A stretch of DNA of 32,996 bases from Verrucomicrobiota bacterium. Lineage in GTDB: Bacteria > Verrucomicrobiota > Verrucomicrobiia > Verrucomicrobiales > Akkermansiaceae. Position numbers and translations under genes: made by a program. This document shows positions 1 through 21,936 of the stretch, one piece after another. The stretch's first letter is position 1; each line of letters starts with the position of its first letter. Location: positions 1 through 32,996 of the forward strand of contig JAURPJ010000083.1 of NCBI GenBank assembly GCA_030835305.1, written 5' to 3'. The notes under the pieces were generated by a model. That model worked only from the letters and a program-made list of their open reading frames with translations, did not search any database and was not told the origin of the DNA.

Positions 1-370
1 CCGAGGCGGCAAGGTGACTTCGGCCTGCACCGCGGGCGGAACCTACACCGCCCAACTTGCGGGACTGCGGGACACTGAAATGACGAGCTCCGCCTTGCGT
101 CATCTCAAGAGCCAGGCCCCCGGCATTATTACCGGCGGCGGAAGCTACTACTACTATACCCATTACTACGCGATTCAGGCGATGGTGCAGGCGGGCGATG
201 ATGAATATGCGAAGTGGTATCCCCAGATTCGCGACGCACTCATCACCAGACAAAACGAAAAGGGCGCCTGGGACAAAGGGAGCGGGCACGGAGGGGGAGG
301 CTATTCAACTCCCATGGCAATCATCATCCTTGCCACCCCGCATCGTTACATCCCAATCTATCAAAGGTAA
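1..370 (+). CDS. Alpha/alpha-toroid (prenyltransferase / squalene-cyclase-like) protein, 3' end only
   Basis: Only the C-terminal part (about 122 residues) lies in the window; the reading frame is open to the left edge, with the first full codon at position 2. The sequence resembles the end of the terpenoid-cyclase/prenyltransferase-fold proteins common in Planctomycetes and Verrucomicrobia. It has an aromatic helix (YYYYTHYYAIQAM), then a KWYPQIRDALITRQ helix, then the repeat-type QxxxGxW segment (QNEKGAWDKGSG), a Gly/Tyr turn and a closing helix ending RYIPIYQR. Each matches the QW-type repeats of that fold. The catalytic half is not visible, so a real cyclase cannot be told from a non-enzymatic toroid. 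The stop codon TAA shares its last base with the ATG of the next gene (TAATG), so translation is probably coupled and the genes are likely co-transcribed. Confidence 0.75.
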   Translation, partial: RGGKVTSACTAGGTYTAQLAGLRDTEMTSSALRHLKSQAPGIITGGGSYYYYTHYYAIQAMVQAGDDEYAKWYPQIRDALITRQNEKGAWDKGSGHGGGGYSTPMAIIILATPHRYIPIYQR

Positions 371-3219
371 TGACAGGTCGGTCGAAGGATCTGCGATTCC
401 TTGCCATTTGTGCGGCAAGTGTGGCTCTTGCCTTCGCTCAGCTTTACCACGCACAGGAGGGGGCGGCCGGCATTCCGGAGAAGGAGATCGTCGCGCTGCA
501 GAAGGAACTGATCGCAGCCGCCGGGGCTTCCTCATCGACCCGAAAGCGCCGCGCCTACAAGAACGTCGTTCGGGACGGGGAAGACCTTCTCGAAAAATCA
601 CCGGAGGCTGCGAGTCGGTTCCGCGTTCTGGAGATCATCTTTCAAAGCCAGAAAAGATTGTTGGCGTTGGATGATTCCGATCGGAACCGCGAGGCGCTTT
701 TCGATACCGGCAGCAAGCTGGTCAAAGCACCGGACGAGCTTGCCGATTTGCGCCTTGAGGCGGACTTGTTACTTTCGGAGAGGGACTTGTCGGGCTGGAA
801 TGCGGATGTGAAAGAGCGTGCCGAAGCGCTCGACGGACTGATCGCCCGCTACCGTAGTACCCCGGCGGAGGCGATGAGCCTGATGATGGCCGCGCAGATT
901 GCTCCGAAGCTGCAAGCCTTCGAATTGCAGAAGAGAATCCTAGACTCCCTGGGGGAACGTTTCGCAGGTGATCCGGGCGTGATTGAGTTTCGGCGGGAGA
1001 ACCTGGGCCTCGGGCGACTGGACGTGTTGTTTGCCGGAACCTTCACCCGTGCGGACGGCGTGACTTTGCGTTTTCCGGATGATCTGATGGGGCGGCTGGG
1101 CGTCATGGTATTTTGGTCAAGTCAGGTGCCGGGCTTCGAGGCATACCTCCAGCAAATCAAGAAGCAGGAGGATCAATTCCCTGACCGGTTCGAGGTCTTC
1201 AGCTTCAATGTTGACGAACTGCCCGATGCGGGCGCGGCAACGCTGAAAGCCCTGGACCTCAACTGGACGGTCATGCGACTGCCCGGTGGTAGAAAAAGCC
1301 AGGCGTATCGGACCTACGCGGTGCAGGATCCCGTCGGGTTTCTTGTTAATGCATTCGGCCATGCTCTTCTCGAGCCAGCCTTATTGAACGTGGCGGATCA
1401 GGCCGACCTTGGAGTGCGTGGCCTGTCTTCATCGATGTCCACCTTGAATCGGCGCCTCGACGAACCACGTTATCTTTCACAATTGCAGTCGCTGTTGGTG
1501 GGCGATTTTTTGGTCACAGAGCCCGATGGTGACCTGGATGTCACCTTGCCCCCCGAGGTGAAAATGGTTTCGATGAACCCTAAGCTAACTCGTGTCGCCG
1601 GGTCAGTTCCTGCCGAAATGCTGAACGCCATTCAGGGATGTTTCACTCCGGCACCCTTCCGCTACCGGCTGACGACCAGCGAGGCACTGGCAAATTACGA
1701 GAAGGCCGAGCGGTTGTGCAGTGAGGCCGTCAAGCTACACCCTGCTGCGCCCGATCTCTGGATCGTGCGCAACCGAAGGATCATCGCTCTTCTGGGCATG
1801 TGGAATCTTGCAGGAGAGCCCAAGTATCTGAAGCAAGCGGCCCGGGAGGCGGGCGTATCTCTGAGCTCAACGCTGCCGCCAGGGGCTGACATCGTCCCGC
1901 GTTTTTGTCTCGCCAGAGAGGTAATTCGGCAAGGGAACTCGCAGCCGGATTCCGTCCTCGCGGATTTGATCGAGAAAACGGGTGGGGCAAAAGCGCTCAC
2001 TTCAGCCCATGCCGCGACCGCAATCCTGGCGTTAAACGCCAACGCGCGGGACTTGTATAATCACTCCCGCGCTAAGTTGCTGGCGCTGCCGGACGGGGCC
2101 AATCCCATGCTTTGGTCGATGCTCTCGTTCCTGCGTGACCGAATCCACAACTACCGTCTGTTTAAGGGCAATTATATCGGGAAGGAACGCGGATCGGTGC
2201 GTGGCTACATGATCAATCATGGCGGCCCTCCGATGACGAAAATGTTGCCGGCCATGACGCTCAAGACCCTGGATGGGCGAACGCTGAATCTTCCGGAGGA
2301 TACCAAGGGCAAGGTGACGCTGTTGGTCTTTGTCGAGCCGTCCGCGGAGCCCGGTGCGGAGTTTCCGGTCGATGTCGGGGAAGGTGAAGACAAAAAGCCA
2401 CACCATCATTTTCTCCAATACGCGTGTGACCTTCAGGACAAGCATGTCAACAAAGGGGTCACAACGATCGCGGCCTTCTTGACTGAAGATGTGGAACGCA
2501 TCGAGACTCTGATGAAAACAAGGGGGCTGACCTGCCAGGCCGCCATCGTGGCGGGCGGTCTTACGAACCCGCTGGTGCGCCGACTGGGCGTTCTTTCCGC
2601 AGATCGTATTCCGAACGTCTTCTTGCTCCGCCGGGACGGCTCCATCGCTTGGAACGCATCGGGACTCCCCTACGAAGATAGCGAAAGATTTGTGAACTTG
2701 CTTGCCGCGAAAGTCCACATCGAGACCTGCGAAGTGGAGACGGCCTACGAGGCTCTCAACAAGAGCGATTTCAAGGAGGCGGCACGGCTATTTAGCGGCC
2801 CTTATTTGCCCTGGGAACCCGATCGCTTCGGATGGCGGCCTCCGCGCTATCATGGAAAGGCGCTGGCCTACATGGGCATGGAAGATTGGAAAGCCGCGCT
2901 CGAGTCCATCGAGGTGGCGATCGAAGCTCATAATTTGAATTACTTACGGGGGCGAAAAAGAGAAAGGGCTCCAAATTGGCGCAAGGACGCAGCCAAGGTT
3001 ACGGTGGTAAATCCTGATGACATTCTGACGGAGCTATGGAACACCAAGGCGCAGATTCTGGCCAAGCTCGGGCGAGAGGATGAGGCGGCCCAAATACGCG
3101 AACGCTACGCCGAACCGGCCACCCCGTTTCCGCCGGGCACTTACAAGGCATTCCACGAAAAGTTGATGGAGTGGAAAGCGCGTAACGAGAACCAGAATGA
3201 TCAGACAAAGAAAAATTAG
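370..3219 (+). CDS. Secreted protein with two degenerate thioredoxin-like domains and TPR-like helices, paralog 1
   Basis: This 949-residue protein has no named function that I recognise. I chose the ATG at 370 because it overlaps the previous stop and gives a signal peptide (basic MTGRSKDLR, then a hydrophobic stretch to about residue 24); a longer open frame to 214 would bury that signal. Visible order: helical region about 35-215; thioredoxin-like fold about 218-335, where the active-site loop reads VFWSSQVPG with no CxxC; helical TPR-like region about 360-600 containing the family motif RNRRIIALLGMW; second thioredoxin/TlpA-like fold about 627-780 with RIPNVFLLRRDG and a single Cys722; C-terminal TPR-like helices about 785-930. 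Homologous along its length to the genes at 5121 and 7840. Likely periplasmic or extracellular. With no redox cysteine pair, a scaffold or binding role is more likely than oxidoreductase activity, but this is inference. Confidence 0.8.
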   Translation: MTGRSKDLRFLAICAASVALAFAQLYHAQEGAAGIPEKEIVALQKELIAAAGASSSTRKRRAYKNVVRDGEDLLEKSPEAASRFRVLEIIFQSQKRLLALDDSDRNREALFDTGSKLVKAPDELADLRLEADLLLSERDLSGWNADVKERAEALDGLIARYRSTPAEAMSLMMAAQIAPKLQAFELQKRILDSLGERFAGDPGVIEFRRENLGLGRLDVLFAGTFTRADGVTLRFPDDLMGRLGVMVFWSSQVPGFEAYLQQIKKQEDQFPDRFEVFSFNVDELPDAGAATLKALDLNWTVMRLPGGRKSQAYRTYAVQDPVGFLVNAFGHALLEPALLNVADQADLGVRGLSSSMSTLNRRLDEPRYLSQLQSLLVGDFLVTEPDGDLDVTLPPEVKMVSMNPKLTRVAGSVPAEMLNAIQGCFTPAPFRYRLTTSEALANYEKAERLCSEAVKLHPAAPDLWIVRNRRIIALLGMWNLAGEPKYLKQAAREAGVSLSSTLPPGADIVPRFCLAREVIRQGNSQPDSVLADLIEKTGGAKALTSAHAATAILALNANARDLYNHSRAKLLALPDGANPMLWSMLSFLRDRIHNYRLFKGNYIGKERGSVRGYMINHGGPPMTKMLPAMTLKTLDGRTLNLPEDTKGKVTLLVFVEPSAEPGAEFPVDVGEGEDKKPHHHFLQYACDLQDKHVNKGVTTIAAFLTEDVERIETLMKTRGLTCQAAIVAGGLTNPLVRRLGVLSADRIPNVFLLRRDGSIAWNASGLPYEDSERFVNLLAAKVHIETCEVETAYEALNKSDFKEAARLFSGPYLPWEPDRFGWRPPRYHGKALAYMGMEDWKAALESIEVAIEAHNLNYLRGRKRERAPNWRKDAAKVTVVNPDDILTELWNTKAQILAKLGREDEAAQIRERYAEPATPFPPGTYKAFHEKLMEWKARNENQNDQTKKN
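523..650 (+). repeat. Near-identical tract shared with 5274-5401 (copy 1)
   Basis: This 128-bp stretch in the helical N-terminal part of paralog 1 differs from 5274-5401 at five positions by my manual alignment. All five are synonymous transitions, while the flanking paralog sequence is much more diverged. The encoded peptide runs from GASSSTRKRRAYKN to EIIFQSQ and is identical in the two proteins; the third paralog differs at many residues in this region. Confidence 0.9.
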
Positions 3220-3223
3220 AAAT

Positions 3224-5110
3224 ATGAAGAAACCCAACCTCATCAAGAATGTCTGGATCGCGATGATCCTGACCCTATCGACATCGGTCCTTGCTGCGGG
3301 CAAATCAGAGCCAATCATCCTGAACCCCGAAGGAAGGAAACTCGAGGCGCATTACAGCAAGATGCTGGCTGACTTGAAGGAAACGATTACGCGGCTGGAA
3401 CCCAAGGTGGACGAAAAGAAGAAGGCCCAATTCACCAAGCAGTTAGGCTCGCTTGGGAGTGTCCCGGCCGTGACCAAGACCGTCATGGGAAATGAAGTCG
3501 CCGTGAAATACGGCCCGGACAATCCTGCCTTTGTTGGAAAACAGAAAGAGGTCCTTACGGCAGCCAGAGTCGTTATGAAGGACCTTGAAACATTTCTCAC
3601 CGGGGAGGAGGCGCTGGCCACCATGGCGAAATTCGCACTTCTCTCTGATGCCACGCCGGAGGGCCTGGCCGGGTTTGCGCAAAAAGGCGAAGCGGAAAAA
3701 GCGCTGATTGACCAACTGCTCAATGATGATCAACTCGTCGTGCAGGCCATGACAATGGGAGGTGCCAGCGGCGGCAACTACGGCCAGGCGATGCGAAATT
3801 ACACCGCCATCCAGAAAGCCGCCGAACGTTCTCACGAGGGGTTCTTCCAAGTGTGGGCCCTGGCTGTCTCGCTTCAGTATACGGGTGATACTTATGTCTA
3901 TCCCGATGTCCCTGCAGCCGAATCATTGGTCCGGTATTACCTGAACTACCTGAAGGCATACGACGACGGCATCCTGGATCCCGCATTTTCTGAATTGGGT
4001 GGGATAGGGTGGAACTACCGTTTTGTCTTTCCAGATTCCTACACGCTTGAAGATATCGACTGGATTAGAAAGGTCTTGCGCAACTACCGTCCCGATCACA
4101 CGCGCCTGGATTACCGATGGCGTTACTGTCGGATCGTGCGGAGCGATATTCCCTATACCAGCGGCGTCGATCGAAGCGGGATGCCAGACGAACTGAGCAA
4201 TATTCAAAAGTTCTTCCTGGAGGGCGGTATTTGTGGTCCCCGTGCCTTTGTTGGGCAAATTTCGGGATACGCTTTTGGGATCCCTTCCCGTCGTGCACCT
4301 TCCCCGGGTCATGGTGCCATGGCGCACTGGACTCCGGACGGCTGGACAACGGTCCTGGGTCCGCATTTCTATTTCTGCAGCCACATCAATGGAATGCCCC
4401 CCATGGATTTTCTGCTGGCATCACAGGCACAAGAAGATCCCAAGGGATTCAAAGAGGCGCTGATGTGTGAGTGGTTGGGGGAAGCACTGGCCGAAGAGGC
4501 CCCTCGCGACTACGGATCAAGCGGTGGGCTCTGGCGATTGCTTGGCTTCTATAAACGACAGGCTATTGTCGAAGATCAGAAAATAAAGGACATCGGAGCG
4601 ACCGGTGAAGAGCTTGCGGAATCGAATGTCAGCAGCGAGAAGGAAGAGGTCGAGGAAATCGAGATCTCCGAGGAATTTAAGAAGATCACGGTGGCCGGGG
4701 ATGGTACCATCACCATTCCCGTGGCGGCATGTCGATCACCGAAGAATGGTGAGAAGATCAGGTTCATGGAAAGCATCGATGGCGGAATGCAAGTGCACTA
4801 CGGTTTGGCAGGTCGCCGCCCGGAGTTACTGAGTTACAATGTCGAAGTTCCCAAAGCCGGTAAGTACGAATTTACGGGACAGGTATGCTCGGTGACGATG
4901 AATCAGGAATTTCTGCTTCGCATCAACCGGAGAACACTCGTGGATGTCAACATTCCCTACACCAAAGCCGACTGGATGGAGACCGAACCCGTTGTCCTCG
5001 AATTGAAAGAGGGACGAAACCGGATCTCCTTTACCCAGAAAGCTCCAAATAAGGGATTAAGTATTAAGGGATTCAAGCTGAAGCCCGTGACGGAGACAGG
5101 CGGACGGTAA
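3224..5110 (+). CDS. Secreted transglutaminase-like protein with C-terminal carbohydrate-binding-like beta-sandwich
   Basis: A 628-residue protein starting at the ATG at 3224, four bases after the previous stop. An in-frame ATG at 3197 would add nine residues and overlap the previous gene by 23 bp. The signal peptide is MKKPNLIKN followed by a hydrophobic stretch ending about VLAAGKS. Residues 30-330 are helical and tyrosine/tryptophan-rich, partly like an alpha/alpha toroid (ELGGIGWNYRFVF). At 333-380 a cysteine-peptidase/transglutaminase-like core is visible: GGICGPRAF with Cys337, GIPSR, then PGHGAMAHW with His363 and His368, and PDGW with Asp372, matching the Cys-His-Asp order of that fold. 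A Glu-rich linker (about 470-485) leads to a beta-sandwich at 488-622 resembling family 6/35 carbohydrate-binding modules. It could crosslink, deamidate or hydrolyse an envelope protein, or bind a glycan. The triad assignment is inference. Confidence 0.7.
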   Translation: MKKPNLIKNVWIAMILTLSTSVLAAGKSEPIILNPEGRKLEAHYSKMLADLKETITRLEPKVDEKKKAQFTKQLGSLGSVPAVTKTVMGNEVAVKYGPDNPAFVGKQKEVLTAARVVMKDLETFLTGEEALATMAKFALLSDATPEGLAGFAQKGEAEKALIDQLLNDDQLVVQAMTMGGASGGNYGQAMRNYTAIQKAAERSHEGFFQVWALAVSLQYTGDTYVYPDVPAAESLVRYYLNYLKAYDDGILDPAFSELGGIGWNYRFVFPDSYTLEDIDWIRKVLRNYRPDHTRLDYRWRYCRIVRSDIPYTSGVDRSGMPDELSNIQKFFLEGGICGPRAFVGQISGYAFGIPSRRAPSPGHGAMAHWTPDGWTTVLGPHFYFCSHINGMPPMDFLLASQAQEDPKGFKEALMCEWLGEALAEEAPRDYGSSGGLWRLLGFYKRQAIVEDQKIKDIGATGEELAESNVSSEKEEVEEIEISEEFKKITVAGDGTITIPVAACRSPKNGEKIRFMESIDGGMQVHYGLAGRRPELLSYNVEVPKAGKYEFTGQVCSVTMNQEFLLRINRRTLVDVNIPYTKADWMETEPVVLELKEGRNRISFTQKAPNKGLSIKGFKLKPVTETGGR

Positions 5111-5120
5111 AAGGATCGAG

Positions 5121-7853
5121 ATGATGGCAAGACGATTGGCAATGGCTTGTTTCCTGGTGGTTCTGCCGGGATTCTGGAGCTTGGGGGTTGCCGGGGAACC
5201 GGCAGGGGAGATCTCCGAAGCCATTTCCGGGAAAGAGATCTTCGCGCTGCAGAAGGGATTGATCGAAGCGGGCGGGGCTTCCTCGTCGACCCGAAAGCGC
5301 CGCGCCTACAAGAACGTCGTCCGGGACGGGGAAGACCTTCTCGAAAAATCACCGGAGGCTGCGAGTCGATTCCGCGTCCTGGAAATCATCTTTCAAAGCC
5401 AAAAGCGCTTGCTGGTCTTGGAGAATTCCGATCGAAACCGGGAGGCGCTTTTCGCTACCAGTCGCAAGCTGGTCGAAGCCCCTGACGAGCTTGCCGATTT
5501 GCGTCTCGAGGCGGACATGTTACTTGCTGAGCGAGACTTGTCGGAAAGGAACGCGGATGTGAAGGCGCGCACGCAGGCGCTCGCGGAGCTGATCGCCCGA
5601 TACCGGCATACGCCGGGCGAGAAAAAGAGTCTCATGATGGCCTCGCTGATCGCGCCCAAGCTGGAGGCATTCGAGCTTGAGAAACAAATCATACGCGCAA
5701 TGAACGAGCGCTTTGCAGGGGACTATGATCTGATTGAGTGGAGGCGGAAAAATAATGGCAACTCCAACGAGAGTGTCCTGTTCACTGGATCTTTCAAACG
5801 TGTCGATGGATCGTCGCTGACCTTTCCCATCGATGGCATCGGTCACACCTGCGTGTTGGTCTTTTGGTCAAAAGATACGCCGGAGATCGCCGCGCGATTG
5901 GCGAAGGTCAAAGATCTGCAAACCCGGTTCCCAGGTCATATCGATGTCTTCAGTTTCAACGTGGACGTGCTCGCTGACGGCGGTGAGAAAACGCTGCGGT
6001 CGCTGGGATTGGATTGGACGGCGATGCTGTTACCCGAAGGGAAAAAAAGTCAGACCTATCGCGTTGTCGCGAGACAGGATCCGATGGTGGTGCGGGTCAA
6101 TGCACACGGACATGCCTTCCTACCATCGACCCTTATCGATGAGCTGCTCAAGGAGGTGTCGATGGAACAGAATCTTGATGACCCGCGTTACCTTGCCCAA
6201 TTGCAGTCGCTGCTCGTTGGCGAGTTTCTCCTGCCCCGGGACATCCCGGCACCCGCGGCGGGATCGGTTCCGGAGAACGTGCGCAAGGCAATCCAAGATT
6301 GCTTTATCGATGCGCCCCTTCGTTACCGGCTGACGCGTTCGCAGGCGCTGGCGAACTACCACAAGGCGGAGAAACTCAGCCGTGATGCCATCGCGCAGCA
6401 CCCGAAGGCGTCGGATCTGTGGCACGTGCGCAATTGCCGGATCATTGCTCTGCTCGGTATGTGGAAGCTTGCTTTTGAACCACAGCATCTGGCGGACGCG
6501 GTGGCTGAGTCACGCATTGCCCTGGCCGCGACGATCCCGGATAGAGCGAAGGTTGTCCCGCGATTTTGCCTCGCGATAGAGGCGCTGCGCCGTGGTGAAT
6601 CCACCCCGCTCCTGGTGCTGACGGAATTGGTCAATGATGGTGCTCTGCCTTCGGCTTATGCGGCGGCCGCCGTCCTCGCGATGAATTCCAACTCAGTTGA
6701 TCTGCATGCTAGATTCCGGGGGGAACTCCTCGAATCCTCCCAGGATGATCCGGCGCTCTGGCCCGTCGTTTCTTTCCTCAAGGATCAGAATCATCGCTTC
6801 CGTCTGTTCAAGTATAACTACTACATGCCGGCGAGCCTGGCGCGCAGGATCGTGCGTGCCGACCTGCGCAGCAATGCGGCGGATCTCGACGCCCCTGCGG
6901 GCACAAGCGGTCCTGTCGAGGTTGAACTCACGACGCTCGCCGGCGAGAAACTGAGTCTGCCGGAGGCGACCGATGGCAAGCTGACGTTGTTGATGTTTGT
7001 CGAGCCGCCCGCCGACGGGGACGCAGAGTTTCCGACCCTGATCAATGGGGCGGTCACCGAGGACTCCCGGGGCCGAAAAGTCGAGACCTTGGGAGTAATG
7101 CAACAGGCCTTCGGGTTCACCGGACAGCATGTCCACAAAGAGATCAAAGTCATCGCGGCTTTTCTGAGCGACGATACAGATCGCATCAAAGCCCTGATGC
7201 AGCAGAATGCCTGGCCGTGTCAGGTGGTCATGGTTCCAGGCGGGCTCAACAATCCACTGGTGCGGCGCCTCGGCGTCCTTTCTGCGGATCGCGTGCCCAA
7301 CATTGTCCTCCTCCGTCCCGATGGAACGATCATCTGGAAACTGTCGGGATCGGTGCATCCGCAGGTAAGGAGTGAGGGACTTGGTGAAACTCTCGGTGTC
7401 ATCAGCCGCGCGCTCAAAACCCAGATTGATCGCTACGAAATCGAACGTTCGATTGTCGCGCTGGAGCAGGGGGATCACGACGAGGCCGCCCGGCTTTTCT
7501 CGGGGCCATTCCCGCCCCCGGAGAGACCAAATCCCGACGGGTGGACCGCGCCTCGTCTGCATGGCCGCGCGTTGGCAAATATCCAACTGGAGCGTTGGGA
7601 GGCAGCGCTGTCGGATCTTGATGCCGCCATCATGGCGCATGAATCGGTATTCAATCGCAAAAAGCCCTGCGGGTGTCATCGGGTGGCAGGCCTGCTTGTC
7701 ACCAAAGCAAAAGTGCTCGATCAACTGGGGCGTTCGCAAGAGGCGGGGGACGTGAGGAAACGTGCGGGCGCTGCCAAGTTCACTCATCCCGACACGCGCT
7801 ACGGATCACTCCACGATCGAATCGAGGAGACAAAAGCGAATGAGAAAAAGTAG
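5121..7853 (+). CDS. Secreted protein with two degenerate thioredoxin-like domains and TPR-like helices, paralog 2
   Basis: A 910-residue paralog of the 370-3219 product. The ATG at 5121 is preceded by AAGG six bases upstream, a plausible ribosome-binding site, ten bases after the preceding stop. The N-terminus MMARRLAMACFLVVLPG is a signal peptide. Domain order is the same: helical region; thioredoxin-like fold with the active-site loop replaced by VFWSKDTPE (Trp249 at the usual Trp position, no CxxC); TPR-like middle with RNCRIIALLGMW; second thioredoxin-like fold with WPCQVVMVPGG (Cys700 conserved in all three paralogs) and RVPNIVLLRPDG; C-terminal TPR-like helices. Residues encoded by 5274-5401 are identical to paralog 1. 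The 3' end overlaps the next gene by 14 bases, indicating co-transcription. Function unknown; likely periplasmic or secreted. Confidence 0.8.
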   Translation: MMARRLAMACFLVVLPGFWSLGVAGEPAGEISEAISGKEIFALQKGLIEAGGASSSTRKRRAYKNVVRDGEDLLEKSPEAASRFRVLEIIFQSQKRLLVLENSDRNREALFATSRKLVEAPDELADLRLEADMLLAERDLSERNADVKARTQALAELIARYRHTPGEKKSLMMASLIAPKLEAFELEKQIIRAMNERFAGDYDLIEWRRKNNGNSNESVLFTGSFKRVDGSSLTFPIDGIGHTCVLVFWSKDTPEIAARLAKVKDLQTRFPGHIDVFSFNVDVLADGGEKTLRSLGLDWTAMLLPEGKKSQTYRVVARQDPMVVRVNAHGHAFLPSTLIDELLKEVSMEQNLDDPRYLAQLQSLLVGEFLLPRDIPAPAAGSVPENVRKAIQDCFIDAPLRYRLTRSQALANYHKAEKLSRDAIAQHPKASDLWHVRNCRIIALLGMWKLAFEPQHLADAVAESRIALAATIPDRAKVVPRFCLAIEALRRGESTPLLVLTELVNDGALPSAYAAAAVLAMNSNSVDLHARFRGELLESSQDDPALWPVVSFLKDQNHRFRLFKYNYYMPASLARRIVRADLRSNAADLDAPAGTSGPVEVELTTLAGEKLSLPEATDGKLTLLMFVEPPADGDAEFPTLINGAVTEDSRGRKVETLGVMQQAFGFTGQHVHKEIKVIAAFLSDDTDRIKALMQQNAWPCQVVMVPGGLNNPLVRRLGVLSADRVPNIVLLRPDGTIIWKLSGSVHPQVRSEGLGETLGVISRALKTQIDRYEIERSIVALEQGDHDEAARLFSGPFPPPERPNPDGWTAPRLHGRALANIQLERWEAALSDLDAAIMAHESVFNRKKPCGCHRVAGLLVTKAKVLDQLGRSQEAGDVRKRAGAAKFTHPDTRYGSLHDRIEETKANEKK
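5274..5401 (+). repeat. Near-identical tract shared with 523-650 (copy 2)
   Basis: Second copy of the 128-bp tract in paralog 2. The five differences from copy 1 are third-position transitions in Ser, Val, Arg, Val and Glu codons. Nucleotide identity falls sharply just outside both ends. Confidence 0.9.
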
Positions 7854-10569
7854 TATCATGACGGCTTTGAAAACTCACATATTTTTGGCGGCATTCCTTC
7901 TTACAGGAGTTTTTGTTGGTGTCGCAAAATCACAGGATGCCGCCGGCGAGATCTCCGAAAGGGAAATTATCTCGCTGCAAAAGGAACTGGCCGAGGCGGG
8001 CGAGGTCTCTTCAAAGACGAGGATGCGCCGGGCCTACAAGGGAGTTGTCCGCGGCGGCGAAAAGCTCTTGAAGTCATCCTCGGCGGCTCCCAACCGCTAC
8101 CGCATTTTGGACATCGTCTTCCAGAGCCAGAAGCGTCTTCTCGCCCTTGAAAACTCAGATGAGAATCGCGACGCTCTCCTTGAAACCTGCGCCATGCTGG
8201 CCGGGGCGCCTGACGAGGTGGCGGATCTGCGCCTCGAGGCGGACTTGTTGATCATGGAGAGGGAACTGTCGATCAAGAAGGCGGATGTGAAGGAGCGTGC
8301 CGGAGCGCTCGAGAAACTGATTGCACGATACCGTGACACGCCGGGTGAGGCGAAGAGCCTGATGTTTGCCTCGCAAATCGCACCGAAGCTTGAAGCCTTC
8401 GATTTGGAAATGCAGATCCTGCGCACCATGCAGGAGCGTTTTTCCGACCATCATGGCGTGATTGAGTTCCGCCGCAAAAGTCTCGCTGCCGGTCGCATTG
8501 AGGCGCTTTTTCGCGGCACCTTCACCCGCGCGGACGGGACCTCGTTGAGCTTTCCGGTCGATCGTTTGGGGTATCCCTGCTTGATGGTGTTCTGGACGAA
8601 GAAGACGGAGGGTTTCGAGGTCGCTCTAAAACAGATCAACGAGTATGAGGAACTCCATCCGGGCCGCTTTGATTTCTACAGCTTCAACCTCGATGAGTTG
8701 CCGGACGCGGGAGAATCGACGCTGCGCGCCCTCGGGTTGAAATGGACGGCGCTCCAACTCTCCGGTGGAAAGAAAAGCCAGACTTTCCGCACCTATGGTC
8801 GCAGAGATCCGGTGAGCATTTTGGTCAATGCCTACGGATACACCTTACTGTCGCCAACCGAGAACTATGGCCACGGCCAAGGAGGGAAGGTAAACCCCTA
8901 CAAGATCGATGATGTCAGGCTCACTAGCGAGCGTTATTTGGCGCAGTTGCAGTCCTTGTTCATTGGCGATTTTTTGGTGGCCAATACAGAAATCCCAGAG
9001 ACTGGCGGGCTGGCCGCTTCGCTTCGGGAGATCCAGGAGTGTTTCGTCAGTTCACCGTTCCGCTATCGGCTCACTCGCGAGGAGGCATTGGCAAATTATG
9101 GGAAGGCATTGAAACTCTCTGCCGATGCGATCGTCAAATATCCCCGGGATCCCGATTTGTGGCAGGTCCGCAACCGCCGGATCATCGCCTTGTTGGGAAT
9201 GTGGAAGATGGCCGCTGATCCTAAATACTTCGAGCAGGCGGCCAAGGAAGCGCGCACCGTTTTGGAGATGACCCTGCCCGACGGTGCCGATCTTGTTGCG
9301 CGATTCTGTCTGGCGAAAGAGGAGCTTCGTCAAAGCGCTGCTGAAGCCAAGTCGATTTTATCAGGACTAGTCGATGAGGGAGGAGGGAGCTCAATTGCCG
9401 TTGCGGCCGCAGCCATTCTCGCTATCGATGCCAACTCGCCGGAGCTGCACGAACACTATCGCAATGTGCTCCTCAAGAATGACACCAACGATTCCAGATT
9501 GTGGGAAGTGGCGGCGTTTTTGCGCGATCGCTATCACCGGTTGGACCTTCTCAAAGTGAAACTCTCTCGCCCTGAGCGTCGTGTCAGGGCGCGTTACGGA
9601 TATATCGTTTCGCCGCGTGAACATGCCGTCAACCACGGTCTCGACCCGATGACCGAGCGCCTGCCTGAGCTTGAGCTGAAGACGCTTGACGGTGACGTGA
9701 TGAAGCTGCCGCGTGAGACACAGGATAAGTTGACCTTGCTCATGTTCGTCGAGCCCCCGGCAGAACCCGACGCTGACTTCCCTGTGCCTCTGGATAGGAA
9801 TCGAAAACCACAGAAGAAAAATGACCCGCTGAGAAACGTCATGAACTATGCATTCGACGTCGCTGAGCGCCACATTCACAAGGAAGTTGAGGTGATTGCG
9901 GCTTTTCTTTGCGACGATGCCGAACGGGTGCGGGCATTAATGGCGAAAAACAAATGGCCCTGCCGGGCCGCGATGGTTCCAGACGGTTTGAAAAATCCGA
10001 TGGTCCGTCAGCTGGGGATCCTTTCCTCCGACCGCATTCCCAACGTCTTCCTGTTGCGCCGTGATGGCACGGTCGCCTGGCACACTTCGGGGTTCGTTTA
10101 CAAATCCGACTTTGGGTATCCGTTTGCGATTTGGCTCGCAATGGGAGTTCATATTGAAGTTTGTGATACGGAGCTAGCTTACCGGGCCTTGGTCGCCGGT
10201 GAATTTGCGAAGGCCAAAAAGATTTTCTCCGGCCCCTTTCTCCCAGGAAAAGATGAACGCTACCGCTGGCGTGCACCGCGTTTTCACGGACGAGCAATGG
10301 CGAATATGGGGTTGAACGATTGGAATTCCGCGTTGATTGACATCGATACGGCGATTGAGGCGCACAAGAAAGAGTTCGATCGCAAGGAAGATGCGCCGGG
10401 TGCGAGTCTGGTCGAGATGCGCACACTCAGAGCACTCATCCTGGAGAAACTCGGTCGAGCCGAAGAGGCCAAAGCGGCCCGGGAACTGGCCGTCGTCGAT
10501 CCTACTCCTTATTCGACATCAATCTACCAAATGTTCCACGACAGATTGTATGAATTGAGACGAAAATAG
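7840..10569 (+). CDS. Secreted protein with two degenerate thioredoxin-like domains and TPR-like helices, paralog 3
   Basis: A 909-residue third paralog. The ATG at 7840 lies inside the end of the preceding gene, with AGGAG about ten bases upstream; an ATG at 7858 is an alternative. The signal peptide is MRKSSIMTALKTHIFLAAFLLTGVFVGVAKS. The first thioredoxin-like fold has VFWTKKTEG in place of the CxxC loop (Trp252). The middle region has the family signature RNRRIIALLGMW. The second fold has KWPCRAAMVPDG (Cys708) and RIPNVFLLRRDG, followed by TPR-like helices. It differs from the other two by an insertion after the first fold (about residues 345-360, GHGQGGKVNPYK). It does not share the near-identical tract of paralogs 1 and 2, so it looks like the older branch. 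Last gene of the string: the next gene is on the opposite strand. Confidence 0.8.
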   Translation: MRKSSIMTALKTHIFLAAFLLTGVFVGVAKSQDAAGEISEREIISLQKELAEAGEVSSKTRMRRAYKGVVRGGEKLLKSSSAAPNRYRILDIVFQSQKRLLALENSDENRDALLETCAMLAGAPDEVADLRLEADLLIMERELSIKKADVKERAGALEKLIARYRDTPGEAKSLMFASQIAPKLEAFDLEMQILRTMQERFSDHHGVIEFRRKSLAAGRIEALFRGTFTRADGTSLSFPVDRLGYPCLMVFWTKKTEGFEVALKQINEYEELHPGRFDFYSFNLDELPDAGESTLRALGLKWTALQLSGGKKSQTFRTYGRRDPVSILVNAYGYTLLSPTENYGHGQGGKVNPYKIDDVRLTSERYLAQLQSLFIGDFLVANTEIPETGGLAASLREIQECFVSSPFRYRLTREEALANYGKALKLSADAIVKYPRDPDLWQVRNRRIIALLGMWKMAADPKYFEQAAKEARTVLEMTLPDGADLVARFCLAKEELRQSAAEAKSILSGLVDEGGGSSIAVAAAAILAIDANSPELHEHYRNVLLKNDTNDSRLWEVAAFLRDRYHRLDLLKVKLSRPERRVRARYGYIVSPREHAVNHGLDPMTERLPELELKTLDGDVMKLPRETQDKLTLLMFVEPPAEPDADFPVPLDRNRKPQKKNDPLRNVMNYAFDVAERHIHKEVEVIAAFLCDDAERVRALMAKNKWPCRAAMVPDGLKNPMVRQLGILSSDRIPNVFLLRRDGTVAWHTSGFVYKSDFGYPFAIWLAMGVHIEVCDTELAYRALVAGEFAKAKKIFSGPFLPGKDERYRWRAPRFHGRAMANMGLNDWNSALIDIDTAIEAHKKEFDRKEDAPGASLVEMRTLRALILEKLGRAEEAKAARELAVVDPTPYSTSIYQMFHDRLYELRRK

Positions 10570-10756
10570 CGAATATAAGGGTGAATACCTATCATAGAGC
10601 CTCTCCCACAACCCGGATCCAAGAAGTCGGTAGGGCGGTGCCCCAACCATCTGACTCCGCGAAAGGAGGTTGATGGAGGTGGTGATGACGGATGCGTTCT
10701 TTCGTCTTAAGTTGGTTGACTTTTTAGGGTCCGCTTTTGTCGGGGATACGGTCCGA
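10570..10756. other. Convergent intergenic region
   Basis: 187 bp between two converging genes. I see no credible coding frame and no strong stem followed by a T-run; a short GGGC/GCCC stem near 10632-10644 is too weak to call a terminator. Confidence 0.5.
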
Positions 10757-13207
10757 TCAACGAGTCACTCTAAAAAACAGCCTGGATGATCCGGGTGCCG
10801 GATTGGCAAGAGGCCCGACCGTGGTGCTGGTTCCGTTGGCCTGAATTCCGTCGATGAGTTCATTGTCGAAATCCATCAAGTCGCTCGACCAGAATATGTT
10901 GTAAACCCGGCCTGCAACAGAATTGAAAGTGAGCGAGATTTGATCGGTTTGTTGATCGTAATCGATTCCAGTAATCTTGAGCTGTGAGGGGCCTACGGCA
11001 GCGTCAGGGCCTGCCTCGAAACTGGCTTGCACGGCGGCATCGTTCATGGCGCCTTCGTAGATGCGGAACTCATTTAGGTCTCCATTCAAGTAGTTGTCAG
11101 CCGTCCAGTTGGACCGTCCCAACCAGTTGTTGACGTCATTGATATCCCGGGGAGTGAAGGTGGTGGTTCTGCTGGATTCTCTCACTCCATCGCGGTAAAC
11201 CGTCAGCTGGCCTCCGCCGGTGCCATCGGAAGTCCAGATGCCGGCCACATGGTATTCCTGGCCTGTGACACTGGCAACTGCGCTATCAGCGGCTTCTTCG
11301 GTTCCATCAACCGGGCCGATTCCTCCTCCAAGGGCAGCCGCGTCGTTGTTTCTGATTGAAGTGCGCTGTAGGTTGAGGTCGGCGGCTTGGCTTGGAGCAT
11401 AGATAAAGTAGTCGAATCCTTCAGATCCGCCGATATTTGTTGTAAAGACTTCTCCGACCGCAGAGGAACCGAAGTCCCAAATTCGTCCCCAATTTTGAAT
11501 GGAGGTGACAGTATACCAAGCCTCGAAAGTGACATGATCGTGGGCGGAAAGAAGGCCGTTGGGCAGGTCGACGTAGGCGGCATTCGCCGTTGCACCATCT
11601 CCACCGGGAAGAGACAGGGCGCTTCCGGACCAGTTTCCACCTGCACCGATAATGGTTCCGTCGGCTCCTCCGATGGAATCAACCACGGTAGTGCCTTCGT
11701 CGGCTGCTCCTGCCGGCTCGTTGAAGGAGTAGCGGTGCACAAGAGCGGGAGTAGTTGCGTCAGACTGAAGTGGATCAGTTCCCGCGAAGACTTCCGGACC
11801 ATCATTGATGCCATCGCTATCGGTGTCGGCGGTGAGCGGTAGCGTTTCGGTGGTATTCACTTCATCTCCGTCTGAAAGACCATCGTCATCACTGTCTGCA
11901 TCAAGAGGAAGAGTATTGGTGGTGTTGACTTCCTCGCCATCGGTCAGATCGTCACCGTCGGTATCCCCATTGTCCGGAGCGGTTCCGATTTGAAACTCCT
12001 CGAGGTTGGTCAAGGTGTCAGAGTCTTCGTCGAGCGCGGCATCTCCCGGGGCGTTGGGATCAAGGAAAGCGAACTGTGTTTCATAGCCATCGGTGATTCC
12101 GTCACTGTCACTGTCGTCATCCAAGGGCAGGGTATTGGTGGTATTGAGTTCCTCAAAATCGGTGAGCCCATCGTCGTCAGTATCCATCTTGAGCGGGTCC
12201 GTCCCCTCGGTCTCGACCTCCTCGCCATCTAGAAGTCCATCGTCGTCGGTATCGTCGTCATTTGGAATGGTGCCCTCTTGGAATTCCTCAAGGTTGGTAA
12301 GGCCATCGCTGTCTTCGTCGAGTGCCGCATCGGAAGGATCGCCGGGATCGAGAAAGGCGTAGAGATCTTCGAAGGCGTCAGACATACCATCGCCGTCGCC
12401 ATCAGCAGTGAAGTCGATGGGGGTGTCGGGCCCGGAGTTCATACTCGCGGTGACCTGCTGCTCGACGAGCGCGGTGTCATAGATCCGGAATTCGTCGAAA
12501 GTCGCGTTCACATTGGCATCGGCGGTCCAATTGGAACGTCCCAGCCAGTTGTTGACGTCATTCAGGTCAGCAAGATTGGAATTGACGACCGCGTCGGTGG
12601 TCAATTGGACGCCGTCACGCCAGTAGTTGATGACGCTGGTGCCTACTCCGGTGTCTTCCCAGGTGACGGCAAAGTGAATGGGATCGCCAACCGTGGTGAC
12701 CGCGGCACTGTCAAAGGTGTAAATACCACCTCCCGCCGGATCTTCATTTCGCACTTCAATTCTTTGGAGGCCGTAGTCGCCACCACGGGTCGCCGAAAGC
12801 AAGAGATAGTCGGTTCCGTTGCCGCCTCCGCCAGGGCCGTTGACCTCGGTGAGATTGCTTGATCCAAAATCAAAAATGCGTCCCCAGTTTTGATCGGTGG
12901 AATCAATGGTGACCCAACCCTCGATGGTCACGGCAGTTTGAGAGGAAATGAGCCCGTTGGGGAGATCGCCATAAGCTTGAGTGGCGGAAGATCCCCCGGG
13001 CAGATCGAGGCCGGTTCCGGTGAAGAGAGCACCGGCCCCGAGAACCGTGCCATCAGCTCCTCCGACAGAATCGGTCAGGGTGGCGCCGCTGGCATCACCA
13101 GCGGGTTCGTTGAAACTGTAGCGGTGAATGAGTTGGGCGTGGAGGGGGCAAGAGGCGCCCAGAAGGAGGGCAGAAAGCCCCATCCGCAAGGTGGTTTGGA
13201 GGGTCAT
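10757..13207 (-). CDS. Secreted protein with two LamG domains and aspartate-rich calcium-binding repeats
   Basis: An 816-residue exported protein. Signal peptide residues 1-24 ([19 protein letters not shown] to LHAQ). The first concanavalin-A/LamG-like domain is at about 26-258 ([42 protein letters not shown]). At about 266-485 lie thrombospondin-type-3-like DxDxDGxxD repeats that probably bind calcium, built from two tandem 96-residue units. A second LamG-like domain occupies about 489-733, again with [17 protein letters not shown] and [10 protein letters not shown]. The tail at 742-816 ([20 protein letters not shown]) is a beta-rich module seen at the C-termini of many Verrucomicrobial secreted proteins. 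No PEP-CTERM tail is present. LamG domains usually bind glycans or proteins; the ligand is unknown. The leader upstream of the ATG is A/C-rich without a Shine-Dalgarno. Confidence 0.85.
11780..12067 (-). repeat. Tandem 288-bp unit 2 (residues 381-476 of the LamG protein)
   Basis: Encodes 96 residues beginning [17 protein letters not shown], aligning without gaps to the unit at 12068-12355. Confidence 0.8.
12068..12355 (-). repeat. Tandem 288-bp unit 1 (residues 285-380 of the LamG protein)
   Basis: Encodes 96 residues beginning [17 protein letters not shown]. The two units are directly adjacent and the same length, each with the [13 protein letters not shown] and TLPL landmarks. Confidence 0.8.
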
Positions 13208-13395
13208 GATGTTTGTTTGGTTTATGGTTTGGAGGTGCCGGTGGAGGCAATTGTGTGAATGAGAAACTAGCTTAATCTTTGCTTGGGAAATAGGATCACT
13301 CCGACATATTTTGTGTTCAAGTGCGACAAGGACTGAAGCTTTTGAGGTTGGTTTGAAGGATTTTGGAGCTGAATGATTTCCAGAAGGGGTTCCGT
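13208..13395. other. Intergenic region, probable promoter/leader of the LamG gene
   Basis: 188 bp between two minus-strand genes. It should hold the promoter of the LamG gene and the 3' end of the VCBS transcript. I see no confident -35/-10 pair and no terminator stem. Confidence 0.4.
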
Positions 13396-16300
13396 TTATG
13401 GTTCCAATGACAGGGTTTTCGAGCCTGCAGGAACCGCGATGGTTTTTGTGGAGCCATCGGGCCTGCGGATGGTGGCGCTGGTATCTTTGGGAGGTGAGGG
13501 GAAGGTGAGGCCGGCCGGAGACTGGGCGAGGTAACCGCCTCCGCCATATAGGGATCGAGTCACGCCATCGATGGTGATTTTGATGCCGGTATCGGCCGGG
13601 GTGAGCGGGATCTTGAGGGCGTCTGTTGTTGCCTGATTCAAGTAGGTGATGGTATTGCCATCATTGATTCCGAAGACGAGATCGAGACGATTGTCTTGGT
13701 TTAGATCGCATACTGTCAGGCTTTTTGCGTCTCCTTGAATGACCAGGCCGCTTTCGGCAGCGGTCATCGGTGCGAGATTTCCCGAGCCGTCATTCTCAAG
13801 AATGAGGCCGAGTCCTCCGTCCATCCGTCCGGTCTCGCGTTGAGGATTATAGAAATTCTGGGCGAGGACGGCGTCGAGATCTCCATCGGCATCGAAATCT
13901 TCCAAGGCGACGCCAAACGCGGGAGCAATTTGGGCAAGGCGTGGCAGGGGGCTCCATGTAAAATGAGCATTTCCATCGTTGAGGAGGATTCCTGATTCGA
14001 GGGTGTTGGCTTCAAATTTAAGGGCGTTTTCAAGGCGCGTGTCCTGATAGAGATCGGTCAGAGCGGAGCTGGCAAAATTGTGGAAAGTTCCGACTTTCGC
14101 CTGGAGCGAGGGCATGGCGCTCTTGGAGCAACTGAATCCCCGGCGGGGAAGCAGTTTGCCATCGGAGACCTTGGCTTCGATGAGGTGGGGTTTGCCGCTG
14201 CCATCGACATCACCGTAGTAGACCAGAGCGGGCTTTTTCGTGGAGGCCTTGTATTTTGTATTGAGTCCGAAGTTGGTCACGAGGAAGTCGAGATCGCCGT
14301 CACCATCGAGGTCTCCGGCGGCAATGCCATTCCACCATCCGGTCCGACCGGTGAGTCCGGCCTCTGCGGTTTGATTAACGAGTTTTCCTTCTTTGTTTTT
14401 GAAAAAGTGGACCGGTCCCCATTCGGTGGTCACAAGGAGGTCGATCCAACCGTCGTCGTTGGCATCGGAGAAGACGGCGCTGGTGACCATGCCGAGATCA
14501 GGGAGCATTTTGGAGGTGAACTTGCCTCCCTGGTTGATGAGAAGTTGGCTTGGCGGAGCCTTGGGATATTGGCCGGGGATGAGGCGTCCGCCGACGAAGA
14601 GGTCGAGGTCGCCATCGCGGTCGATATCGGCACAGGCAACCGGTCCGGAGCTCATGGGCAGTTTGGGAAGGCTGCCGTCCGGAGCGTTGGTGAAGTTTCC
14701 CTTTCCATCGTTGAGGTAAATTTGATCGCAGTAGGAAGAATGACCGGGTTGATCCTCGGAGCTGCCGTGGGCAATGAAGAGATCGAGGTCACCATCGTTG
14801 TCGCAATCAAAAAAGAGAGCTCCCATGTCTTCGGATTCACGGCTTTCTTCCAGGACCGGTGTGTTGAGCGGAGTGAAGTTTCCCTCACCGTCATTGCTGA
14901 ACATTTGACCGGTCTGACCTTTGGCTCCGCCGAGGAAGAAATCGTCATCGCCATCGCCGTCGAGGTCCCCCCAGGCCATGCCGGGCCCGTTTTGCGAGAG
15001 CTTGTTGGGGAGAAGGGGTTGAAGTTTGAAATCATCGAAAGGAGTTTCTTGATGGATCGCTTTTGCGAGATGATCGGACTCGGCAAAAAGCGGGGTGGGA
15101 GCTTCGGGAGCCGGGGGGGCAGGCTGCCCAATGGGTTCCGAGACGATGAAATGTTGATTGGCGTCGAGGTTTTCAAAAACCTGCCGGACCTTGCCGGGCC
15201 AGTGAATTTCGAGGCGCTGGACTTTGTCGATTGAACCCAGTCCGAATACGGCGGTGGTATCGCTCGCAGAAAGCCAACCCCTAGCCGAGGTGATGCTGCG
15301 TGATTGCAGTCCTGCTTCGGTGGTCACGAGGATGGTCGCGCCGAGGCCCCTTTGATTGCTGGCGACTCCACGGAGGGATACTTTGATGCGATTATTTTTC
15401 GAGGTGTTGTTGCGATAAATACTCACCGGACCGTCGGCATTGTTGATGATGAGGTCGCTGTCACCATCGCCGTCGAGATCCGCTGTGGCGGCCCCGTAGC
15501 TGACGCCGTTTCTTTCCAGACCCCAATCCCCGCCCATGGATTTAAATTTCATGTCTCCCATGTTTTTGAAGGCGAGGTTCTTCTCCTTACGCATTGGTTT
15601 CTCCAACCAAAATTTGACGTATTCCGGCGAGCCTGGCTTAAGGTTTTTCTCGGCATAGTTGGAGAGGTCGGAGTTCATGCTATCCCTCATGATGCCATTG
15701 GTGACGAAGACGTCGGCGAGGCCGTCCTGATCAAAGTCTTCAATGCGGGGGGACCAGGTCCAATCGGTGCTGGAAAGTCCGGCAAGAAAAGCGGCTTCCT
15801 GAAAACGACCCGTGCCAGAGTTGAGGTAGACCGAATTTCGCATGAATTGGCGGGGCTCGGCCCAGTCAAGAAACCACCCGCTGTCGTCCATGTTTCCCAT
15901 CATGACCTTGGAGCGGTAGTGGGAGGTGGCGGACATGTCGGAAGCGAAGAGGTCGGGGAGGCCGTCATTATTAAGATCGCCGACATCGCTGCCCATCGAG
16001 AACCAAGGAGTATGCGGGGTCGCTTCGCGGGTGACGTTTTCGAAAGTTCCGTCACCGCGGTTGCGATAGAGGATGTCCGGTCCGGTGTAGTCGTTGGAAA
16101 CGTAGAGGTCGGCATCGCCGTCGGCGTCGTAATCGAGCCAGGTCGCGGAGAGAGTGAAGTAGTTGCCATCGATTCCGGCGGACTTTGAAACATCGACAAA
16201 CTTTCCGTGATCGTTGCGGAAAAGATGATCGTATTGAGCGGCCTCGGTACGGCGAACCTTGTCACCGGGCAGATAGAGAATGTCCCAGTATTCCCGAAGC

Positions 16301-17040
16301 TCTGGCAAGACCACGGGGACTTCGACGCCATCGCTTTCGCGCGGGACGAATTTCACCTGGAATTTTGTGCCTGCAGGGGGAGCTACGGCAGTGGTGGCAA
16401 GGTAGCCATCAAGATCTCCATCGTTATCGATGTCGGCGAAGCTCATCATCATGCTGCCCCCTTTGAAATCAAGGCCCAGTTGCTTCGCTTGGTCGGTGAA
16501 TTTCCCGTTGCCATCGTTGAGGTAAAGCTTGTTTGGGCACTGATATCCGCAGGCGTAGAGGTCGAGGTCGCCATCGTTGTCAATATCGACAAAGCTCGCT
16601 CCGGTTCCCCAGAATTCGGGATCAGAAACGCCGGCGGATTGGGTGACGTCCTCGAACTTGAAATTGCCGAGATTGCGGTAGAGTCGATTCCCGCCGGAAG
16701 GGCTTGTGATGTAGAGGTCGGGGAGTTGGTCTCCATCGTAGTCGCCCGTGCAGATCCCGCCGGATGGATTCAGGAAAAGAAATTCTTTGAGGTTTCCCTC
16801 CGGATCGTTCCAATGCAGTCCGTAGTCGACTCCGCTGTGAGCCGTTTCCACCAATTCGAAAAGAGTCCCGCCTGCGCTTTGATCGGAACGGTCCGGTAGC
16901 GGAGTGGAAGTGATTGAACCCTCAACGGGCTTGGGAGATGAGGGGGCGGTGGACTCTGGCGCCTGCGATGATTCCTGCTTGCAAGCGGACAGGAGCAGCA
17001 GAATTGAGAGCGAATAGAGAATACGGAACAAGTGAAACAT
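13396..17040 (-). CDS. Lipoprotein with FG-GAP/VCBS beta-propeller repeats and ASPIC/UnbV domains (CRTAC1-like)
   Basis: A 1214-residue protein with a type II signal peptide: hydrophobic stretch to LLLLSAC, so Cys20 is the probable lipidation site, followed by a Ser/Pro-rich linker to about 55. Residues 90-540 contain repeated FG-GAP/VCBS units with calcium-type loops such as [26 protein letters not shown] and [10 protein letters not shown], expected to form a beta-propeller. Residues 550-635 match an ASPIC/UnbV domain ([30 protein letters not shown]). A second propeller set spans about 680-1140, and a second ASPIC-like end follows ([19 protein letters not shown]). Such proteins are frequent in PVC bacteria and are usually regarded as surface or periplasmic binding proteins; substrate unknown. 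It lies between two genes encoding related LamG domains, suggesting a shared surface function. Confidence 0.88.
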
Positions 17041-17083
17041 GGCCGAGTTGGAGGTTTGGTAAACTCGATGGGATGGGCGTTGG

Positions 17084-17115
17084 AAAAAAAACCCGCCCTC
17101 TTCAAGAGGGACGGG
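17084..17115 (-). terminator. Rho-independent terminator downstream of the LamG PEP-CTERM gene
   Basis: On the minus strand a stem (CCCGTCCCTC pairing with GAGGGCGGG, one bulged base, short TTGAA-type loop) is followed directly by eight T residues. It lies about 50 bp after the LamG PEP-CTERM stop and just before the VCBS gene start, so the two genes are probably separate transcription units. Confidence 0.85.
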
Positions 17116-17163
17116 TGATTAAAAATCGGGTGATTTAGAACCCCCGTCAAACTGTGGATCTTT

Positions 17164-18015: not shown

Positions 18016-18302
18016 AGTGTGCAGACGAATTTGTAATTTGACACATCAAGGATGATCGAAAATCTGCTGGGATTCTAGGATGAAAGCGTCATATCATGTG
18101 TAAATATGCGCCGTAATGAGGGCTTTTCAACGGGAGATGGGGATCAGCTTGAGTGATGCTTTTCGGAGCGAAAAATTGCAGGGCAGGTGGAGGAATCTTC
18201 GAAGTTGTCGGAATAAGCCACGGATCTTGGCGGGTTCCACCTAGTTCAATTCCGTGGATTGGGGTATCTTGTCCGACCGGCACACTCGAAGCTCCTCTGT
18301 TT
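18016..18302. other. Divergent intergenic region
   Basis: 287 bp between the divergent LamG PEP-CTERM and lamin-tail genes. It must hold two promoters, but I cannot place -35/-10 boxes with confidence. An open frame from 18153 runs in phase into the lamin-tail gene; I regard it as an upstream extension because a signal peptide begins at the ATG at 18303. Confidence 0.4.

Positions 18303-21936
<3,634 letters not shown>

Follow-up and report, generated by a model that had tools for sequence, protein, structure and literature searches.

A transglutaminase-like and thioredoxin-fold gene set at the putative 3' end of a MoxR/Bat-type envelope operon in Akkermansiaceae

Five genes at a contig edge and their relatives

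The stretch of 32,996 nucleotides (nt) analysed here, referred to as the window, is one entire contig (C67, JAURPJ010000083.1) of the fragmented genome (133 contigs, 4.45 Mb) of a Verrucomicrobiota bacterium of the family Akkermansiaceae (GCA_030835305.1). Five co-linear frames on the + strand occupy its left edge: a toroid fragment, the thioredoxin-fold gene TRX-alpha, the transglutaminase-like gene TGL and two further thioredoxin-fold genes, TRX-beta and TRX-gamma (Table 1). The toroid gene is severed by the contig edge, leaving a fragment that has no start and has lost its 5' part. It shares 98% identity with residues 254-375 of the toroid in a relative, and the intact toroid of a relative matches Pfam SQHop_cyclase_C. 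The junctions, in gene order, are a 1-nt overlap, +4, +10 and -14 nt, the last becoming +4 with the alternative start of TRX-gamma, and all four complete products have hydrophobic N-termini that resemble Sec signal peptides, as judged by eye. A preliminary description of the window, made from its letters alone, had called this a compact, co-linear operon of five genes with junctions that overlap or leave at most 10 nt and a signal peptide on each complete product. The frames, the spacing (-14 to +10 nt) and the N-termini agree with that description and the arrangement recurs in relatives, but the compact unit appears to be just the downstream part of a longer operon. Chance neighbourhood was ruled out, as the same gene order recurs in relatives and the genes co-occur.

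Table 1. Features of the five-gene locus in the window
Feature	Position	Strand	Description
Toroid fragment	2-370	+	C-terminal 122 residues, alpha/alpha-toroid (squalene-hopene-cyclase/TED-like)
TRX-alpha	370-3219	+	949 aa, exported TPR protein, two degenerate thioredoxin folds
TRX-alpha N-terminal stretch	473-923	+	84% DNA identity to TRX-beta; probable gene conversion
TGL	3224-5110	+	628 aa, secreted transglutaminase-like, C-terminal CBM6/35-like domain
TGL Cys337 codon	4232-4234	+	invariant, 42/42
TGL His363 codon	4310-4312	+	invariant, 42/42
TGL CBM6/35-like domain	4703-5086	+	residues 494-621; window protein below Pfam CBM_6 cut-off
TRX-beta	5121-7853	+	910 aa, exported TPR/double-TRX paralog
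TRX-beta N-terminal stretch	5225-5674	+	matches TRX-alpha
TRX-gamma	7840-10569	+	909 aa, exported TPR/double-TRX paralog; alternative start 7858
TRX-gamma second thioredoxin fold	9646-10173	+	residues 603-778, no CXXC

Gene order in relatives was collected with tblastn from the window plus 48 other stretches, of which some share a contig; five repeat loci (L040, L043, L051, L057 and L058) and 14 loci of TGL relatives without TRX genes were left aside. The order in relatives is MoxR, DUF58, BatA-like VWA, VWA/GATase, DUF4175-like, toroid, (SASA esterase), TRX, TGL, TRX. Judged from this order, the five window genes are the 3' end of a longer, predicted MoxR/Bat-type envelope operon, in which the proteins encoded upstream of the toroid are a DUF4175-like protein of ~1500 aa, a VWA/GATase-like protein of ~800 aa and a BatA-like VWA/CARDB protein of ~720 aa. 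The run from MoxR through the DUF4175-like gene is uninterrupted in eight places (L091, L160, L158, L161, L156+L096, L094, L073+L093 and L092). In 21 places the DUF4175-like and toroid genes run on the same strand into the TRX/TGL genes, with at most a SASA esterase or an unassigned gene between them. A separate toroid search placed the toroid at the expected spot in G027:C153 and G042:C10 as well; in the remaining stretches the sequence stops first or TRX is absent. The closest relative, G008:C62, has every gene of the set, MoxR through TRX-gamma (L091 and L064), with 90% identity to the window in TGL and 87% in TRX-gamma. The conserved linkage of toroid, transglutaminase-like and thioredoxin-fold genes that had been proposed for the window is borne out by the gene order across these relatives. 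The window's own genome holds a second, diverged operon on contig C80, with TRX, TGL, toroid, DUF4175-like, VWA/GATase and BatA-like genes.

In the upstream half, the DxSxS motif of the metal ion-dependent adhesion site (MIDAS) is present in 16/16 BatA-like, 15/15 VWA/GATase and 8/8 DUF58 proteins, and all eight MoxR AAA+ ATPases have Walker motifs, with Walker A in the form G-PG-AKT. Pfam AAA_3 and DUF58 matches were obtained on locus L094, and the BatA-like protein of locus L068 scores above the cut-off for VWA_2 and slightly below that for BatA.

Presence of the genes was counted in a family sample of 60 genomes, the window's own included. BatA-like and toroid proteins are each found in 55 of these genomes (E <= 1e-10), TGL or a relative in 28 and a TRX protein in 13. 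With the BatA-like protein and toroid in 55 genomes versus 13 for TRX, a general Bat/toroid system is thus widespread in this family, TRX and TGL being carried by one of its branches. DUF4175-like proteins at E below 1e-200 occur in exactly the 13 TRX genomes (29/60 at E <= 0.001); the chance of two such identical genome sets, 1.9e-13, overstates the case because the kinship of the genomes is ignored. Of the 13 TRX genomes, 12 have a strong BatA-like ortholog (E below 1e-225); in the remaining one, G033, the contig terminates within the preceding gene. Among 288 genomes sampled across the phylum, two contain TRX, the window's own and one with a weak 21-bit match to the helical part only, and 96 have TGL matches, some to the CBM part alone. 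Neighbourhoods were counted around 50 TGL genes on the basis of open reading frames (ORFs), including partial genes and several per genome and leaving out the five loci named above, which repeat counted contigs. TRX lies inside 5 kb of 29 of these genes, and in 28 of the 29 it is <=210 nt away on the same strand.

A six-gene operon from the same family, L172 (G023), has MoxR, DUF58, BatA, VWA/MG2, DUF4175-like and toroid genes in the same order as the first six genes of the longer operon, whereas TRX and TGL are absent from it. Its DUF4175 match is below the Pfam cut-off, and the G023 genome has no TRX match. The ORFs of L174 (G006) agree with the six-gene operon in size and order. At L172, the VWA/GATase-type protein (8838-11264) has an MG2 domain (33.8 bits versus a cut-off of 32.8) and the toroid (14822-15880) has a borderline TED match (22.1 versus 22), which may point to parts of an alpha-2-macroglobulin-like system.

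Thioredoxin folds in TPR proteins

The AlphaFold2 model of TRX-gamma, computed with 32 other rows (pLDDT 83.3, pTM 0.79), contains two thioredoxin folds within helical repeats, and the two folds match one another in profile-profile comparison (E 1.5e-10), in agreement with the architecture first described for these proteins. The best structural match of the second TRX-gamma fold is the ResA/DsbE-type protein 3gl3_B (Z 14.7, root-mean-square deviation 2.5, 140 aligned). TPR families were matched in the TRX proteins by TPR_2 (12/33) and TPR_14 (8/33). The fold of the TRX domains is thus that of ResA/DsbE/TlpA-type proteins, but here two folds share one ~900-aa chain with helical repeats and no CXXC is found at the active site of either fold in any of 33 rows (one row has CXXC elsewhere). 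Redox-active thioredoxins were ruled out by this absence, and the view of the folds as non-catalytic stands.

An alternative is a system for oxidative stress (aerotolerance), the role proposed for Bat proteins, with the TRX folds taking a redox part. BatA-like, DUF58, MoxR and TPR components are all present, and cysteines off the usual site are conserved in the TRX proteins, for example at position 490 in 32/33 rows and position 401 in 31/33. However, with CXXC missing from both sites in 33/33 rows, and with TGL and its CBM-like domain left unexplained, we consider such a system very improbable.

In a tree of residues 210-900, TRX-alpha, TRX-beta and TRX-gamma fall in separate supported groups together with genes from other genomes: the beta group has 3 rows (100/100), the gamma group 6 rows (100/100), and alpha lies inside a 13-row group (100/100). 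A recent tandem duplication of the three genes was ruled out, as their bodies fall in three cross-genome groups. TRX-alpha and TRX-beta are 87% identical over residues 45-150 versus 47% over residues 210-900, and at the DNA level the N-terminal stretch is 84% identical over 452 nt. Because of this difference between the N-terminal stretch and the body, gene conversion homogenising a putative docking domain is probable; alternatively, the likeness may reflect strong conservation by selection.

The transglutaminase-like protein and its surroundings

The AlphaFold2 model of TGL has a pLDDT of 87.8 and a pTM of 0.87. Residues 494-621 adopt a CBM6/35-like fold that matches 5fui (Z 14.8, root-mean-square deviation 2.0, 119 aligned). 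Against Pfam CBM_6 the window TGL scores 14.2 bits, below the cut-off of 28.9, and 9/42 TGL relatives match CBM_6 at E <= 0.01. The fold-search lists of TGL are occupied by CBM-type domains, and searches of solved structures, made with the single sequence and with a profile, matched the CBM part and gave one weak match to residues 17-99.

The transglutaminase assignment of TGL is based on profile-profile comparison and on bridging proteins. The window TGL domain matches no Pfam family at E <= 5; six of 26 TGL domain members match Transglut_core weakly (best E 0.0081), the most of any family, and a search of the TGL rows with a single hidden Markov model, the genuine transglutaminase profile, was likewise weak (best E 0.096). 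Compared as profiles, the TGL core matched 26 genuine PF01841 domains with E 8.5e-6 and a probability of 83%, while six control segments gave E values of 0.087-0.49. The alignment is in register, with Cys on Cys, GIP on GIP and His on His. Four bridging proteins score 0.5-5.7 bits above the PF01841 cut-off and give E values of 3e-10 to 2e-12 with the TGL profile; their alignments place the same Cys stretch in register, and in L166 the His too. By these comparisons TGL resembles a transglutaminase-fold thiol enzyme, linked to the transglutaminase superfamily without being classed as a member of PF01841. It shares the Cys-helix, GIP and His-Trp pattern with that family but lies beneath Pfam detection and differs at the third catalytic position. 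The initial identification of a secreted transglutaminase-like/CBM protein is supported by the 5fui match, the core profile and the conserved residues.

Within the TGL core, Cys337, His363, Trp374 and Gly379 are invariant in 42/42 rows, including relatives down to 20% identity. The third catalytic residue of the transglutaminase motif, an Asp expected four residues after the Trp, is absent from all 42 rows, which have L, F, Y or Q at this place, followed by the invariant Gly. Of the 'cysteine triad' suggested at the outset, the Cys-His pair is therefore conserved and the third residue is not. The missing Asp and the likewise degenerate TRX folds would fit TGL as a dead substrate-binding protein in an entirely structural or adhesive module. 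We judge this quite improbable, since the Cys, the His and the flanking motif stay invariant down to ~20% identity, and since Cys and His are retained in the bridging proteins that exceed the PF01841 cut-off, where that Asp is, by eye, missing too.

Carbohydrate-active genes are found near TGL. A SASA carbohydrate esterase lies inside 5 kb of 17/50 TGL genes and is <=110 nt away on the same strand for 11/50. These counts exceed a rough chance expectation (4e-7 for 5 kb, 2e-10 for 110 nt), which uses the density in the window's own genome only (33 SASA in 4.45 Mb) and treats genes as independent; the SASA class consists of sequence clusters, with Pfam checks on two representatives. Sulfatases and BD-FAE-like esterases are also close to some TGL genes. 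Together with the CBM-like domain, these neighbours point to a glycan-bearing substrate, which is probably what the TGL module acts on.

The esterases, the sulfatases and the CBM-like domain would also suit a unit for the breakdown of glycans or glycoproteins, in which TGL would serve chiefly as a secreted amidase or deglycosylase of transglutaminase fold alongside the esterases and sulfatases, with the MoxR/Bat half confined to its maturation or regulation. Peptide:N-glycanase is an example of an amidase/deglycosylase with the transglutaminase fold, and SASA is found near 10 of 21 TGL genes without TRX as well. Against this, TRX and the DUF4175-like protein co-occur strictly, which ties the branch to the envelope operon, 22/29 TRX-linked TGL genes have no SASA inside 5 kb, and the SASA counts come from clusters with only representatives checked. 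Breakdown as the main role is, in our assessment, unlikely.

Longer TGL relatives (~700-890 aa) occur without TRX neighbours, for example on G000 C48 (L063), and the G000 and G008 copies (L063 and L066) have conserved flanking gene clusters. TGL copies were also found in L045, L047, L048, L049 and L061, on contigs labelled Deltaproteobacteria, Phycisphaerae, Pirellulaceae or Planctomycetota. Their TGL is 73-80% identical over the best segment, and the TRX rows of L045, L047 and L048 are placed among verrucomicrobial rows in the tree. These copies reflect either transfer or mis-binned contigs.

Downstream of TRX-gamma, the window carries LamG/TSP3, FG-GAP/UnbV and LamG proteins on the - strand (10757-18015); the LamG protein has a weak PEP-CTERM match (17 bits versus a cut-off of 20.7), and the three cluster types also flank the operon in G008:C62. 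ORFs 18153-18488 and 18504-19568 on the + strand form one lamin-tail-type frame (18153-19568) that is interrupted by one in-frame stop (18486-18488). In several loci, relatives of the second ORF have 1259 aa or more, and the gene may be a pseudogene. An esterase-like protein (19633-21936, +), with a xylanase/feruloyl esterase model below cut-off as its best match, a PVC-type heme-binding CxxCH protein (25404-28862, +) and a Ser/Thr-kinase-like protein with a weak TolB-propeller match (28918-32268, -) are also encoded.

None of nine operon proteins matched PADLOC anti-phage defence models at E <= 0.001, and TGL and TRX-gamma had no match in PHROGs at E <= 0.01, in a search that left out viral contigs. 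On these negatives, a defence or phage origin of the operon was rejected.

Known systems and a proposed role

The preliminary description knew of no described system with this composition. That view has to be revised, as the genes appear to be the 3' part of a MoxR-DUF58-BatA operon and a MoxR-DUF58-transglutaminase cluster has been published for Bifidobacterium (PMC8430577, in the part of the paper available). Among the matches listed in a search of titles and abstract beginnings of the openly licensed literature, no account of the present gene set was found. Bat (Bacteroides aerotolerance)/MoxR operons share with it the MoxR ATPase, DUF58, a MIDAS-bearing BatA-like VWA protein, TPR proteins and an envelope location, going by the accessible portion of PMC3557215; the operon described here adds DUF4175-like, toroid, TGL and double-TRX proteins. 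The PFNA cluster of Bifidobacterium likewise groups AAA/MoxR, DUF58 and transglutaminase-like genes, but its transglutaminase-like protein has transmembrane regions, whereas TGL is exported, CBM-bearing and Asp-less; no double-TRX protein is named for PFNA in the available text, versus several here (PMC8430577). Relative to both Bat operons and PFNA-type clusters, the toroid and DUF4175-like genes are particular to this operon. The sections available from three papers describe MoxR ATPases as chaperones for complexes of several proteins (PMC8430577), state that Bat proteins form complexes through their VWA and TPR parts and postulate that MoxR places the MIDAS metal (PMC3557215), and present the DUF4175 protein AdvA of Acinetobacter as acting in cell division (PMC7481262).

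We tentatively favour, with somewhat less than even confidence, a MoxR/Bat-type envelope operon extended by a transglutaminase-like Cys-His enzyme and redox-dead TRX/TPR scaffolds that would act on a glycan-bearing substrate. This reading builds on gene content, order and co-occurrence, the MIDAS and Walker motifs, the CXXC-less TRX folds and the invariant Cys-His pair, all established at the sequence level. MoxR and its VWA partners would assemble or remodel an inner-membrane complex, on which the periplasmic scaffolds may dock through their N-terminal helical domain, kept alike between TRX-alpha and TRX-beta by putative gene conversion. The scaffolds would position TGL, the CBM-like domain would direct it to the glycan-bearing substrate, and TGL would break or make an amide-type bond there. 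The more specific proposal, a MoxR-VWA machine dedicated to one exported complex whose Asp-less enzyme of transglutaminase fold is aimed by the CBM, held by double-TRX/TPR proteins with gene-converted docking domains, and directed at an amide of a glycoprotein or amidated glycan, is possible but doubtful.

Several observations weigh against the operon reading. TRX is missing inside 5 kb of 21/50 TGL genes, so TGL can work without it, and the TGL-TRX genes lie ~22 kb from the toroid in G048 and ~8.5 kb in G008:C59. The upstream half lies outside the window, and strong DUF4175-like and BatA-like matches in the window's assembly are confined to C80, so that this half of the window copy is reconstructed from relatives. 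The pairing of the alpha and beta N-termini in the tree is modestly supported (91/64 for the window, 92/82 for L043), and TGL lacks the third catalytic Asp.

Collectively, the TRX proteins suggest that thioredoxin folds have been reused as non-redox scaffolds, and TGL suggests a transglutaminase-like subfamily without the third catalytic residue. To our knowledge, the assembly products of MoxR-VWA operons are rarely known. Through co-occurrence in individual genomes, the operon variant described here ties MoxR-VWA to a defined exported module with a candidate Cys-His pair, and may thereby offer a concrete candidate client.

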